DNA from: Thermodesulfobacteriota bacterium
GTDB taxonomy: Bacteria > Desulfobacterota > Desulfobacteria > Desulfobacterales > JAUWMJ01
Assembly: GCA_034189135.1 (NCBI GenBank)
Contig: JAXHVO010000088.1
Span: 1 to 43,186 of the forward strand
DNA: 43,186 bases
Direction of reading: 5' to 3'
A program made the position numbers and the translations under genes. The notes under the pieces were generated by a model that was given only the letters and a program-made list of their open reading frames with translations, ran no database searches and was not told the DNA's origin. Position 1 is the first letter of the stretch. Each line of letters starts with the position of its first letter. Positions 4,038 through 11,319 of this stretch are shown piece after piece.

Positions 4038-4095
4038 CTAACGGCGCGCGATAATACGGGAAAAACCTATGCTGTTCGCTAAAGGAGTTTGGTCA

Positions 4096-5214
4096 ATGGC
4101 AAAATTTGATCTTTTTTATGACATTATGAACCATCCGGGTCAGTATGCCCTGAGCTGGAAAAAAAAAACCGGTAATAAAGTAATCGGCTATTTCTGTTCA
4201 TATGCACCTGAAGAAATTATAACGGCAGCCGGCGCTCTGCCATTTAGAATCCTGCCCGGATCAACAAGCATTTCAAAAGCGGATGCGCATCTGCAGTCTT
4301 ACAGTTGCAGTCTTGTTCGCGGAGCACTGGAAGATGCCTTGAACGGAAGGCTTGATTTTCTTGATGGGACTGTCTTCCCCCATACCTGCGATTCGATCCA
4401 ACGGCTTTCCGACATATGGCGCATGAATGCCGGTTTCAAGTTCCATGCAGATGTGTTGGTACCGGCAAAGCTGAACACCCCAAGTGCGGTGGAATATATG
4501 ATAAGTATTCTCGCCCGGTTTAAAAAACAACTGGAAAAACTGACGGGTACCGAGATTACTGTAGAAAAAATGAAAGAAGCCATAAACATATACAATGGCA
4601 TAAAGACACATCTTTCTCAGCTTTATGCCATAAGAGGGGATGCACCCGGCGTGATCAAAAGCAGCGATATCCATGCCGTATTCAAGGCCGCAATGGTTAT
4701 GGATCGAAAACAGCTGCTGGAAGAACTTGAAAGGCTGACCACCGACCTTGAGGGAAAAAACCATGCCCCTGAACCGGCCCAAAAAAGAATCGTCCTGAGC
4801 GGCGGGCTGTGCAGTATGCCTGATATATATAAGACCATAGAGGAATCAGGCGGTGTGGTGGTGTGGGATGACTTATGTACAGGATCAAGATATTTTGCAG
4901 GAGAGATTAACTCCCAGGAAGAACCTTTAAAAGCCATTTCCACCCGATACATGGAAAGAGTCGTGTGCCCGGCAAAACACAAAGGCATATTCAGCCGCGG
5001 CGAGTATCTGATTGATGCGGTCAAAAGTAACAGGGCCGACGGGGTCATATTTTTCTTGTTAAAGTTTTGTGATCCCCATGCCTTTGACTACCCCTACATG
5101 AAGGAGATGCTGGAAAAAGAGAACATTCCGTGTGTGCTTTTGGAAGTAGAAGACCCGCTTCCTTCGGAAGGGCAGATCAATACAAGGTGTGAAGCGTTTA
5201 TGGAAATGCTGTAA
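4096..5214 (+). CDS. 2-hydroxyacyl-CoA dehydratase / benzoyl-CoA reductase family subunit (HgdB/BcrC-like)
   Basis: About 372 residues from ATG 4096, chosen because TAAAGGAG lies just upstream; an in-frame ATG at 4069 has no such site. The protein belongs to the HgdA/HgdB-BcrB/BcrC superfamily, whose subunits each hold a [4Fe-4S] cluster and together perform ketyl-radical chemistry on an acyl-CoA. Likely cluster cysteines are in SYSCSLVRG, FPHTCDSIQ and FFLLKFCDPHAFD, with the conserved family ending (LLEVEDPLPSEGQINTRCEAF). It is the first gene of a tight plus-strand operon with a second subunit and an activase. Sequence reading alone does not settle whether the substrate is a 2-hydroxyacyl-CoA or an aromatic acyl-CoA. 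Confidence 0.85.
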   Translation: MAKFDLFYDIMNHPGQYALSWKKKTGNKVIGYFCSYAPEEIITAAGALPFRILPGSTSISKADAHLQSYSCSLVRGALEDALNGRLDFLDGTVFPHTCDSIQRLSDIWRMNAGFKFHADVLVPAKLNTPSAVEYMISILARFKKQLEKLTGTEITVEKMKEAINIYNGIKTHLSQLYAIRGDAPGVIKSSDIHAVFKAAMVMDRKQLLEELERLTTDLEGKNHAPEPAQKRIVLSGGLCSMPDIYKTIEESGGVVVWDDLCTGSRYFAGEINSQEEPLKAISTRYMERVVCPAKHKGIFSRGEYLIDAVKSNRADGVIFFLLKFCDPHAFDYPYMKEMLEKENIPCVLLEVEDPLPSEGQINTRCEAFMEML

Positions 5215-5227
5215 AAAGGAGACCCCT

Positions 5228-6466
5228 ATGCCGGATCCGAATAAAGCGATAGATCCTGAAGTGGAAAAAAGAAAAATAAAGTCAGTCAAGCGTATGAAAG
5301 AGATCATGACTGAATATTATATTGAAGCCAAGACACCCAAAGAACAGACCGGCAAAAAAATCGCCTGGATTACCAGCGGCGGACCTGTTGAACCCTTGAT
5401 TGCCATGGAAGTGATACCCGTATATCCGGAAAATTATGGAGCAATGATCGGTGCAAGTAAAATGGGAACCGATCTTTGCCAAAAAGCCGAATCAATGGGA
5501 TATGCCGGTGATCTGTGTTCCTATGCAAGGGCTGATATCGCCAGCGCGACGGTCAACGGTGGCCCCATCGGAGGACTTCCAGAACCCGATATGCTGATTT
5601 GCTGTAACAATATCTGCGGAACCGTCCTTAAATGGTACGAAGTGCAGGCCCGATACTATCATGTGCCGCTTTTCATTCTGGATACCCCTGTCTGCCATAC
5701 GGAATTTTCTGCTGAAATCAGGCAGTACGTGGAAAAACAGGTAAGGGAATACATACGCTTTCTAGAAGACGTGTGCGAAAAAAAGTTTGATTATGACAAA
5801 ATGGCTCAAGTCGGTGAACTTTCCGTCAGAGGGCAGGAACTCTGGCAGAAGGTTCTCGACACGACCATGAACCGGCCATCACCCATGACCTGCTTTGATG
5901 CGTTTTTTCATCTTGCCCTGATTGTTACCTTGAGGGGCACGCAAACGGTGGTCGATTATTATGAAATGCTTCTGGCCGAGATGAAGCAGCGGATAAAGGA
6001 CGGTATCAGCATGGTCCCGGATGAAAAGTACAGGCTGCTGTGGGACAATCTGCCCATCTGGTACAGGACCCGCTGGATGTCTGACAAATTTGCCGCCCAT
6101 GGCGCCTGTCTGGTGGCGGACACCTATACTTCAGGATGGTGCAGTTCCCTGAAATATATGGACAGAGCCGATTTCCTGGGATCTCTGGCCGAAGGGTACA
6201 CCCGAATTTTTCTTAACACCGGCACCGATCAAATGGCAGACAATATCCTGGAAATGGCAAAAAAATATAGTGCGGACGGGCTGGTGATGCATTCAAACAG
6301 AAGCTGCAAGCCTTATTCTTTCGGGCAGTATGATATTCAAAAAATAGTGCAGGAAAAGATGCACATACCCACCTTGGTGATTGAAGCAGATATGGTTGAT
6401 GAGAGAATTTTTACTGAAAGTCAGATTGAAACCAGAATAGATGCATTCATCGAAATGCTGAAATAA
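5228..6466 (+). CDS. 2-hydroxyacyl-CoA dehydratase / benzoyl-CoA reductase family subunit (HgdA/BcrB-like)
   Basis: 412 residues from ATG 5228, preceded by AAAAGGAGA and 13 nt after the stop of the previous subunit; an in-frame upstream extension overlaps that gene and is unlikely. It is the second subunit of the same superfamily. Cysteines in position to bind a cluster include those in GDLCSYARADI, LICCNNICGTV and HSNRSCKPYSFGQYD; the last motif is typical of BcrB/BzdO and HadB-type chains. It ends with the same TESQIETRIDAFIEML signature as its partner, consistent with a heterodimer built from paralogous chains. It acts in the cytoplasm and needs one-electron reduction by the activase encoded next. 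Confidence 0.85.
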   Translation: MPDPNKAIDPEVEKRKIKSVKRMKEIMTEYYIEAKTPKEQTGKKIAWITSGGPVEPLIAMEVIPVYPENYGAMIGASKMGTDLCQKAESMGYAGDLCSYARADIASATVNGGPIGGLPEPDMLICCNNICGTVLKWYEVQARYYHVPLFILDTPVCHTEFSAEIRQYVEKQVREYIRFLEDVCEKKFDYDKMAQVGELSVRGQELWQKVLDTTMNRPSPMTCFDAFFHLALIVTLRGTQTVVDYYEMLLAEMKQRIKDGISMVPDEKYRLLWDNLPIWYRTRWMSDKFAAHGACLVADTYTSGWCSSLKYMDRADFLGSLAEGYTRIFLNTGTDQMADNILEMAKKYSADGLVMHSNRSCKPYSFGQYDIQKIVQEKMHIPTLVIEADMVDERIFTESQIETRIDAFIEMLK

Positions 6467-6481
6467 TTTATAGGGGTGGAA

Positions 6482-7270
6482 ATGATAACTGTTGGTGTAG
6501 ATATAGGGTCCATCACTGCCAAAGCGGCGATAATAAAAGATGAAAGTATAGCAGCCACAAAAGTTATTTTAACCGGCTATAACGCACAAACTGCAGGGAC
6601 CCAGGTGTTGGAAGCTGTTTTGGCTGATGCAGGCATCGATTCTTCACAGGTGGATTGTATGATTGCAACAGGCTATGGAAGACACCGCGTGACTTTCGCC
6701 GATAAGGCGGTCACCGAGATTACCTGCCATGCAGCAGGGGCTCATTTTCTTGATCACGATGTTCGTTCCATCATCGATATCGGCGGGCAGGACAGCAAGG
6801 TGATCGTCATCAATGAAAACGGCAAAGTGATCGATTTCGCCATGAACGATAAATGTGCCGCCGGAACAGGTCGTTTCCTGGAAGTCATGGCAAGGGCCCT
6901 TGAAGTCGACCTGGATGAATTCGGCCACATGTCTCTTAAGGCGGACAATACGGCGGCCATCAGCAGCCTGTGCACCGTGTTTGCTGAATCTGAGGTTATT
7001 TCATTGATTTCAAAAGGTGAAAACCGGCCAAACATTATTGCCAGCATACATGAATCGATTGCATCGCGGGTGGTGGCCATGGGAAACCGAATCGGTCTGC
7101 GTGAACCGGTGATGATGACAGGTGGTGTGGCAAAAAATATCGGCGTGGTCAGGGCCCTGGAAAAAAAGATCAACACCACCATAAAAGTATCCAAAAATGC
7201 CCAGGTCACCGGCGCTATCGGAGCCGGGCTGATTGCAGCCACGCAGAAGGGAAAAGGCGGTGAGGAATAA
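6482..7270 (+). CDS. Acyl-CoA dehydratase activase (BadF/BadG/BcrA/BcrD ATPase family, HgdC-like)
   Basis: ATG 6482 (262 aa) is preferred because TAGGGG sits at the right distance; a GTG at 6476 would overlap that site. It is an ASKHA-fold ATPase: phosphate loop GVDIGSITAKAA at the N-terminus, DIGGQDSKVI in the middle and a MTGGVAKN loop near the end. The two cysteines that bridge one [4Fe-4S] cluster between monomers are present in NDKCAAGTGRF and SSLCTVFAESE. Proteins of this kind use ATP hydrolysis to push a low-potential electron into the dehydratase or reductase. Only one activase gene is present, as in HgdC or HadI systems, whereas classic class I benzoyl-CoA reductases carry two different ATPase subunits. 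Confidence 0.9.
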   Translation: MITVGVDIGSITAKAAIIKDESIAATKVILTGYNAQTAGTQVLEAVLADAGIDSSQVDCMIATGYGRHRVTFADKAVTEITCHAAGAHFLDHDVRSIIDIGGQDSKVIVINENGKVIDFAMNDKCAAGTGRFLEVMARALEVDLDEFGHMSLKADNTAAISSLCTVFAESEVISLISKGENRPNIIASIHESIASRVVAMGNRIGLREPVMMTGGVAKNIGVVRALEKKINTTIKVSKNAQVTGAIGAGLIAATQKGKGGEE

Positions 7271-9526: not shown

Positions 9527-10705
9527 CTATGTTGCCCGGTTAATCTTGTTATATAAAGGTGAAATATCCCTTAAGGTGGTGACCGCATTTTTCAGGGCAG
9601 CTAAAAAACGGTCCACATCTTCTCTGGTATTATCCACTCCTAAAGAAACAACCAGCGTGCCCTGGGCATCCGCGTGATTGAGACCCAGGGACATCAGGAC
9701 ATGAGACGCTCGAAGGGAACCGGTGGCACAGGCGGATCGGGTGGATACGGCAATATTTTCATCATCCAGCATCAGCATCACACTTTCACCTTCAATGTAC
9801 TTTAAGGAAATTGAAATCAGATGGGGAAGGCTGAACTCAGAATGGGTATTGATAATGTACTCATCAATATAATCCGGAAGCTGGGTTAAAATCTTTTGTT
9901 TTATCCCTTTGAGATGGGCCATTCTTTTCTCCATATCCTGCCTGGCAAGCTGCGCCGCCTTGCCCATACCGATAATCCCGATCAGGTTTTCCGCCCCTGC
10001 CCGCTTGTTGTGCTCCTGGACACCGCCGTCTAAGAGCGGAAATACACGGGTACCTCGGCGGATGTATAATCCCCCGGCCCCTGACGGCCCGTAAAACGTA
10101 TTGGAGGCAAAACTGAGCAAATCGACCCCCAGTTTTTGCACGTCAACCGGCACGATACCCACGGAATCGACCGCATCGGTATGAAAAATAATCTTCTTCT
10201 CCCGGGTAATTTTTCCTATTTCTTCAATGGGCTGGATGGTTCCGGTTTCATTATTGCTGTGCATGATTGAAACCAGAATGGTTTCATCACTAATGGCTTC
10301 AGCCACATCCTGAGGGTTAACCCGGCCTTGATGGTCCACGGAAATGGAAGTCACCTTGTAGCCATTAGATTTCAGCCTGCGAATACTGCGGATAACCGCA
10401 TTATGCTCAATGTTTGACGTAATAATATGTTTACCCTTATCTGCATTGGCAAGGGCGACACCCTTTATGGCATGATTGATGGATTCCGTACCTCCTGAGG
10501 TAAAAACGATTTCTTTGGACAAAGCACAGTTGATCAATTCTGCCACAGACTTGCGGGCCTTTGCCAGAGCATCCGCAGCCTGTTCGCCGCCTTTATGCTG
10601 GCTGGAAGGGTTGGCATAATCCTGTTGAATGGCCTCTATCATCACCTCTTTAATTTCCGGCAAAATCGGGTTTGCCGAAATATGATCCAGATTAATGATT
10701 TTCAT
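9527..10705 (-). CDS. NifS/IscS-like cysteine desulfurase homologue lacking the PLP lysine
   Basis: 392 residues, a full-length class V aminotransferase-fold NifS/IscS homologue (TSGGTESINHAIKG, SNNETGTIQPIEEIG, HTDAVDSVGIVPVDV). The catalytic cysteine loop is intact (STRSACATGSLRASHVL). The motif that normally reads SxSAHKxxGPKG reads SFASNTFYGPSG, so the PLP-binding Lys is Thr and the preceding His is Asn; the codons at about 10095-10125 confirm this with no frameshift. The usual DAVQ is DAVD and EHKAV is EHNAV, so several PLP contacts have changed. It probably cannot form the internal aldimine and may instead serve as an IscU partner or persulfide/sulfide docking protein. It lies downstream of iscU in the same orientation. 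Confidence 0.85.
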   Translation of the reverse strand: MKIINLDHISANPILPEIKEVMIEAIQQDYANPSSQHKGGEQAADALAKARKSVAELINCALSKEIVFTSGGTESINHAIKGVALANADKGKHIITSNIEHNAVIRSIRRLKSNGYKVTSISVDHQGRVNPQDVAEAISDETILVSIMHSNNETGTIQPIEEIGKITREKKIIFHTDAVDSVGIVPVDVQKLGVDLLSFASNTFYGPSGAGGLYIRRGTRVFPLLDGGVQEHNKRAGAENLIGIIGMGKAAQLARQDMEKRMAHLKGIKQKILTQLPDYIDEYIINTHSEFSLPHLISISLKYIEGESVMLMLDDENIAVSTRSACATGSLRASHVLMSLGLNHADAQGTLVVSLGVDNTREDVDRFLAALKNAVTTLRDISPLYNKINRAT

Positions 10706-10803
10706 ATTTATGACTCCTGAACAGGAAAAGGCCGGGAGGATAGAAGGCTTTTGGGTTGATCGCCTCCCGTTTTCCGGCCTTCCAGCTTCCAGGCCTCTTG
10801 ATT
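10706..10803. repeat. GC-rich imperfect inverted repeat between iscU and the NifS-like gene
   Basis: Within this 98-nt gap, GGGAGG on the left (about 10735) can pair with CCTCCC on the right (about 10763), and GGCCGG/CCGGCC-type blocks recur on both sides. It may form a hairpin in the iscU transcript ahead of the NifS-like start, or be a remnant of a short dispersed repeat. The alignment is imperfect and no T-tract follows. Confidence 0.35.
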
Positions 10804-11319
10804 CTAATGATGGTGTTCCTCAAGATTTGACTGGCAGGCCTCACAAAATGTGACACCCTCCTGAATCTCGATATCACAGTAGGGACAGTAACATTTATCA
10901 CCATGGGTGTGTTCGTGTTTTTCCACACGGATAGGTGCAGGTTTTGTTATTCCGGCCCTTTTATCTTCATAGTCTTTGATGGCCAGTTGCAGTGCATCGG
11001 CTCCCAGGTTGGAACAGTGAAGTTTGTTGGTCGGCAGGCCCTCCAATGCTTCGGCCACATCCATGTTGGTAATGTTTTTAGCCTCTTTTAGGCTTTTCCC
11101 CTTGGCAATTTCCGTAAGCATGCTGGACACGGCAATGGCTGAGCCGCACCCGAAGGTCTGGAATTTGATATCCTCAATGCAATCGTCTTTTATTTTAAGA
11201 TATACGGTCATCATATCCCCGCAAATGGGATTTCCGACTTCCCCCACGCCGTCCGCATCTTCTAACACACCCACATTTCTCGGGTTTCTGAAGTGATCCA
11301 TCACCGTTTCATTATACAT
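10804..11319 (-). CDS. iscU: IscU/NifU-type Fe-S cluster scaffold with C-terminal zinc-ribbon-like tail
   Basis: 171 residues from ATG 11319, chosen because AAGGAGG lies 8 nt upstream; an ATG at 11337 is upstream of that site. The IscU domain (about residues 1-125) has the three cluster cysteines in NPICGD, FGCGSAIAVS and HCSNLGADA, plus the conserved Asp of CGD. The protein then continues with a linker (KHEHTHGD), a CPYC...CEAC zinc-ribbon-like module and a terminal HHH, which typical IscU (about 128 aa) lacks and which does not look like the NifU C-terminal Nfu domain. It is the first gene of a two-gene unit with the NifS-like protein. It builds [2Fe-2S]/[4Fe-4S] clusters for transfer to apoproteins. 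Confidence 0.9.
   Translation of the reverse strand: MYNETVMDHFRNPRNVGVLEDADGVGEVGNPICGDMMTVYLKIKDDCIEDIKFQTFGCGSAIAVSSMLTEIAKGKSLKEAKNITNMDVAEALEGLPTNKLHCSNLGADALQLAIKDYEDKRAGITKPAPIRVEKHEHTHGDKCYCPYCDIEIQEGVTFCEACQSNLEEHHH

Follow-up and report, generated by a model that had tools for sequence, protein, structure and literature searches.

Genes and features at the locus

The window analysed here, a stretch of 43,186 nucleotides from a sulfate-reducing Thermodesulfobacteriota bacterium, carries a homologue of the cysteine desulfurases IscS and NifS in which the PLP-binding lysine is absent and its position is taken by Thr203. The gene lies beside iscU (Table 1), and its frame, described as unbroken in an earlier note on this DNA, is indeed open. 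The protein has the aminotransferase class V fold (fold type I), as indicated by its Pfam match and by Z scores of 50-54 to IscS/Nfs1 structures, while its best NCBIfam model, NifS (TIGR03402), scores 433 bits, below its cut-off of 531, and the IscS model 364 bits, below its cut-off of 643. An AlphaFold2 model (pLDDT 91) adopts the IscS fold and superposes on Archaeoglobus fulgidus IscS, chain 4EB5_A, with a Z score of 50.5 and an rmsd of 1.5 Å over 370 residues (1.3-1.5 Å across the A. fulgidus IscS structures). The same archaeal protein has the highest sequence identity among the structure matches, 42%. The single long low-confidence loop of the model, residues 226-237, occupies the position that contacts the PLP phosphate in normal enzymes of the family. 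The nearest relative, from another genome, is 90-91% identical and reads SFASNTFYGPAG at the catalytic motif.

Table 1. Coordinates of the lysine-less IscS gene, its active-site positions and the adjoining iscU
Feature	Position	Strand	Basis or remark
Lys-less IscS/NifS homologue, 392 aa	9527..10705	-	open frame; Pfam Aminotran_5 E 3e-75
Motif SFASNTFYGPSG, residues 198-209: Asn202-Thr203 at catalytic His-Lys, Ser208 at Lys of GPKG	10079..10114	-	alignment
Asp180 at PLP-contacting Gln of DAVQ	10166..10168	-	Gln in 42/42 canonical, 0/99 Lys-less
Val352 at Arg of VRxSLG	9650..9652	-	Arg in 42/42 canonical, 0/99 Lys-less
Cys326, mobile-loop cysteine, kept	9728..9730	-	Cys in 99/99 Lys-less
Arg323, clade-specific, three residues ahead of Cys326 and a Gly in normal enzymes	9737..9739	-	alignment
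iscU, start MYNETV (listed ORF begins 11337)	10804..11319	-	directly upstream of the Lys-less IscS gene; NCBIfam NifU_clost TIGR03419 above cut-off
IscU C-terminal CYCPYC...CEAC zinc-ribbon-like tail	10834..10893	-	pattern match

The IscU of the window keeps all of its active-site residues (Cys, Asp, Cys, His, Cys), and among solved structures A. fulgidus IscU (4EB5_C) is its best match. The intergenic RNA between iscU and iscS (10706-10803) folds into a long hairpin of -36.8 kcal/mol (z -2.5), which is stronger still in the locus of a 90% relative (L009). As a conserved element this hairpin was discarded, being strong in these two loci and not common to further relatives. Elsewhere in the window (4069-7270), two genes resembling the D component of 2-hydroxyglutaryl-CoA dehydratase are followed by a BadF/BcrA-type ATPase, likely a system of the benzoyl-CoA reductase/dehydratase type.

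Active-site residues and descent of the lysine-less proteins

Relatives were drawn both from named genomes and from genomes sampled in the order and the phylum. The resulting alignment holds 99 Lys-less sequences, which include the window protein and A. fulgidus IscS (the latter entered as the letters of its PDB chain), and 42 canonical, Lys-bearing relatives; the row of Escherichia coli IscS was compared with the other canonical rows at its catalytic sites, where it matches them. When the window protein is aligned with IscS of E. coli and of A. fulgidus and with the loci of other genomes, its Asn202-Thr203 line up with the His-Lys of SxSxHKxxGPKG, just as the earlier note had read them, and about 100 relatives likewise lack the lysine. 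The loss does not come alone: His202, Lys203, Gln180 and Arg352 are jointly absent from 99/99 Lys-less sequences, all of which keep Cys326, and every one of the 42 canonical relatives has all five residues. The change of DAVQ to DAVD, also pointed out before, is therefore a real loss. That of the Arg of VRxSLG, which binds the substrate carboxylate in enzymes of the family, had been missed, as had that of the second Lys of GPKG. On the other hand, a change of EHKAV to EHNAV had been counted among the altered PLP contacts, and this does not stand: normal enzymes may have K, P, H or D at this position, and His101, which stacks on PLP, is retained throughout. With four catalytic residues gone, the substrate Arg among them, the view that these proteins probably cannot desulfurate cysteine by the normal route is well supported at the level of sequence.

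The loop that carries the catalytic cysteine had been called intact, which holds for Cys326 but not for its surroundings. The window protein reads STRSAC where normal enzymes have SSGSAC, so that Arg323 replaces a near-invariant glycine; this position is R or K in 86/89 members of the window's clade and G in 41/42 canonical proteins and in A. fulgidus IscS. At the catalytic motif itself the Lys position varies freely among the Lys-less proteins (T, Q, P, S, A). The His position, by contrast, almost always holds Asn, a sign that this Asn has a role.

The contacts that hold the PLP ring and phosphate in normal enzymes have largely been spared: His101, Asp177 and Arg235 are kept in 99/99 Lys-less sequences and Thr73 in 98/99. 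PLP may therefore still bind non-covalently, and some chemistry would be possible. These contacts are what speaks for a PLP enzyme of changed chemistry, which would hold PLP or PMP without an internal aldimine and act on another substrate. We regard this as very unlikely, given the loss of both the Lys and the Arg for the substrate carboxylate, the freedom of the Lys position to vary, and the low confidence at which the phosphate-binding loop is predicted. Nor does the pocket offer a clade-specific lysine, no substitute having been found in the active site among the 99 Lys-less sequences. K81, the sole invariant lysine of the clade, was considered as a substitute near PLP and rejected, since many normal enzymes have it too.

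Within the order, 74/291 sampled genomes gave a match to the Lys-less protein. One of them (G021, locus L109, 47% identity) proved to encode a normal His-Lys enzyme and was removed, leaving 73/291. The clade also occurs elsewhere in the phylum, where all of the proteins fetched and aligned were Lys-less. Over 41 pairs dN/dS had a median of 0.077 and a maximum of 0.18, pointing to purifying selection. A decaying pseudogene or a sequencing error is effectively ruled out by the intact frames of about 100 relatives, the dN/dS of 0.08 and the conserved operon.

A tree built from all columns places the Lys-less proteins, that of A. fulgidus among them, on one side of a branch with an SH-aLRT of 91. 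When the trait columns were masked, the window's clade remained at 100/100, while the wider grouping was weak and had the Lys-bearing PDB 9WEP inside it. One or two events of lysine loss fit the data, and a loss shared by ancestry with A. fulgidus IscS is plausible, although weakly supported. The earlier note had spoken of a recurring 'desulfurase-dead' scaffold. With the Lys-less proteins gathered in a single region of the tree, one origin is possible, and 'recurring' perhaps says too much.

The partner IscU and the other desulfurases of the genomes

The note had also judged a bacterial example next to iscU worth a look, and the arrangement turned out to be general: in 93 of the 97 informative loci, that is, those with room to see it, iscU and the Lys-less gene are neighbours on one strand (two more loci end at a contig edge). 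We found no other conserved neighbour, be it a rhodanese/TusA, carrier or chaperone gene. The cysteine-rich C-terminal tail of the window IscU is a mark of these partners, since CxCPYC...CxxC occurs in 89/94 IscU proteins paired with Lys-less IscS and in 0/10 paired with canonical IscS; two of these ten rows stand for one NifU of the window genome, which appears in two loci. A. fulgidus IscU is without this tail. On the IscS side, a C-terminal LRxxSPL motif is found in 99/101 Lys-less proteins and in 9/42 canonical ones, mostly those partnered with IscU; E. coli IscS, itself an IscU-partnered protein, has it as well. We presume that this C-terminal region is where IscS binds IscU.

The earlier note had proposed checking whether the genome encodes a second, normal desulfurase, and it does. 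Besides a normal NifS, the window genome (95.5% complete) encodes one other Lys-bearing IscS-like protein. Its NifS belongs to a normal operon, NifU-NifS-CysE-CysK (G000:C103, L162:6353-10311), so that the cysteine-fed NifU-NifS is linked to cysE and cysK whereas the Lys-less pair has no such linkage. SufB/D was not found in this genome by a search that was positive in 14/14 control genomes. Normal desulfurases coexist with Lys-less IscS in most of the genomes examined.

Three related genomes differ in this respect: G061 and G133 (each 99% complete) and G099 (93%). All candidates were scored in them, and the strong PF00266 matches are Lys-less IscS and SerC, the rest having E values above 1e-11. 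The second protein is SerC by sequence in G133 and G099; in G061, where the printed frame is on the opposite strand, it is taken to be SerC because the matching position and the score are the same. The pattern HK...[GA]PKG was not found in G061 or G133. In these three draft genomes we thus recognised no cysteine desulfurase, and found no SufB/D. Matches to NifU_N are limited to the paired IscU in G133 and G099, G061 having one further, unlisted match, and dsrA is present in all three. In a fourth genome (G050, 97% complete), a contig-edge fragment beside a tailed iscU was found together with SerC and nothing else. Our survey of NifS was kept out of these claims of absence, which rest on the other searches, because it scored six candidates per genome.

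These genomes bear on two other roles for the protein. One is that of a sulfur-relay subunit, in which another donor (the genome's NifS, a rhodanese or polysulfide) would load Cys326 of the dead IscS with sulfane sulfur, to be handed on to IscU. The invariance of Cys326 agrees with this, as do the normal NifS and the other Lys-bearing enzyme of the window genome, which could be sources of the sulfur; but G061, G133 and G099 keep the pair without a recognisable desulfurase, and no rhodanese/TusA gene is conserved beside the Lys-less gene. We hold a relay to be unlikely, if less so than the remaining alternative, a regulatory pseudoenzyme that would compete or heterodimerise with normal NifS and so limit desulfuration or cluster assembly. 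To the latter, in spite of the coexistence with normal desulfurases in most genomes, we give little credence: Lys-less IscS is kept in genomes with no recognisable normal desulfurase, it is nearly always paired with a tailed IscU of its own, and the window protein, with 36-38% identity to the NifS of the same genome, is far from it in sequence.

In the order sample, SufB/D is rarer in genomes with the Lys-less gene (12/73) than in those without it (114/218; Fisher p 5.5e-8, uncorrected for kinship). A link to dsrA within the order was considered and dropped: dsrA is present in 247/291 genomes, about 63/73 of those with the gene as against 84% of the others. Since dsrA is near-universal in the order, possession of the Lys-less gene shows no tie to sulfite reduction in itself. 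Two further Lys-less IscS-like proteins, L191 (G351) and L172 (G538), carry the motifs SSQMLHGPVG and SGPALGGPKG and each have an adjacent iscU, so that some genomes would carry two dead IscS-IscU pairs. In G046, a genome of the order sample (100% complete), the searches for Lys-less IscS, for NifS (at E 1e-60, six candidates scored per genome) and for SufB/D gave nothing.

Proposed function of the IscS-IscU pair

The best guide to function is A. fulgidus IscS, which the earlier note had rightly named as a Lys-less protein: chain 4EB5_A reads SSNDIYGPKG at the catalytic site. Structures are available (PDB 4EB5, 4EB7 and 4HVK, and the crystallised D199K mutant, 4R5F). PMC7585200 reports, at second hand, that this IscS has no desulfurase activity and that one of its cysteines serves as a ligand of the cluster on IscU; the structure, with the Cys ligand, is described in PMC5176006. 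The archaeal protein has lost the same four sites (Asn-Asp at His-Lys, Ala for Gln, Leu for Arg), has kept the Cys, and is paired with IscU. It differs from the window protein in being archaeal, in having kept both the Lys of GPKG and the glycine of the Cys loop, and in having a tailless IscU. Methanosarcina acetivorans IscS1, also archaeal, is reported to be without the catalytic lysine too, and a mode of action like that of A. fulgidus IscS has been suggested for it (PMC7585200).

We consider it probable that the desulfurase-dead IscS is a structural, cysteine-donating partner of the neighbouring IscU, on which clusters are built from sulfide. In favour are the joint loss of the four residues with Cys326 and the C-terminal motif kept, the purifying selection, the near-constant pairing with a tailed IscU, the relatives in which no other desulfurase was recognised, the scarcity of SufB/D in genomes with the gene, and the archaeal precedent. 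The IscS dimer would dock IscU and bring the mobile-loop Cys326 to its assembly site as an extra cluster ligand (or as a carrier of outside sulfur), and iron and free sulfide would then form the cluster on IscU. Sulfide should be abundant in a cell that reduces sulfite to it, so that cysteine desulfuration would not be needed. The inactivity of the Lys-less protein, its binding of IscU, the use of its Cys as a cluster ligand and sulfide as the sulfur source are what we infer here, and the dead IscS would contribute docking, a fourth ligand or protection of the nascent cluster. A mechanism like that of A. fulgidus IscS appears to be the most economical account. In E. coli without iscS, clusters can be assembled with H2S, and this depends on IscU (PMC13015791).

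Since the window genome retains a normal NifS and the Lys-bearing IscS-like enzyme, the pair may be auxiliary in this organism, where sulfur could come from those enzymes, and it probably works beside the cysteine-fed NIF system. The lineages of G061 and G133 may instead use it alone as their assembly system; the few genomes without a recognisable working desulfurase suggest that clusters are there built directly from the cell's own sulfide. Going further, a whole bacterial lineage might dispense with cysteine desulfurase, the dead IscS and tailed IscU forming a sulfide-fed two-protein machine in which the zinc-ribbon-like tail and Arg323 replace desulfurase function, for example by docking iron, sulfide or a target. 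We put this forward tentatively, as possible but short of likely.

Lys-less IscS is already known from archaea. For the bacterial clade, its four-site signature, the tailed IscU and the genomes with the pair only, we found no report in the open-access literature, which is weak evidence of novelty since only such literature was covered. The textbook ISC, NIF and SUF systems draw their sulfur from cysteine; assembly from sulfide has been shown for the SufBC-like SMS, and both A. fulgidus IscS and E. coli without iscS are suggested cases of it. The family described here is large, conserved and bacterial, and its IscS partner, by its residues, would be without cysteine chemistry, and in some genomes this partner forms with IscU the only recognisable assembly pair. 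What IscS gives to cluster assembly besides sulfur thus becomes testable.

Canonical IscS and NifS, such as E. coli IscS and the NifS of the window genome, share with the window protein the fold, the mobile-loop Cys and an IscU partner, but keep the His-Lys, the Gln and the Arg. The MIS system resembles the window pair as a two-gene IscS-IscU module in an operon without carriers or chaperones; it is, however, defined by a working cysteine desulfurase, a definition that the window IscS would fail on its catalytic residues. Sulfide-fed cluster assembly, presumed for the window pair, has been shown for SMS (SmsCB; PMC12192291), which, unlike the pair, uses SufB/C homologues. Many genomes of the order sample encode a short SufB/D-like protein (PF01458, about 319 aa, E about 1e-22) that is distinct from full-length SufB and is possibly an SmsB of the SMS type.
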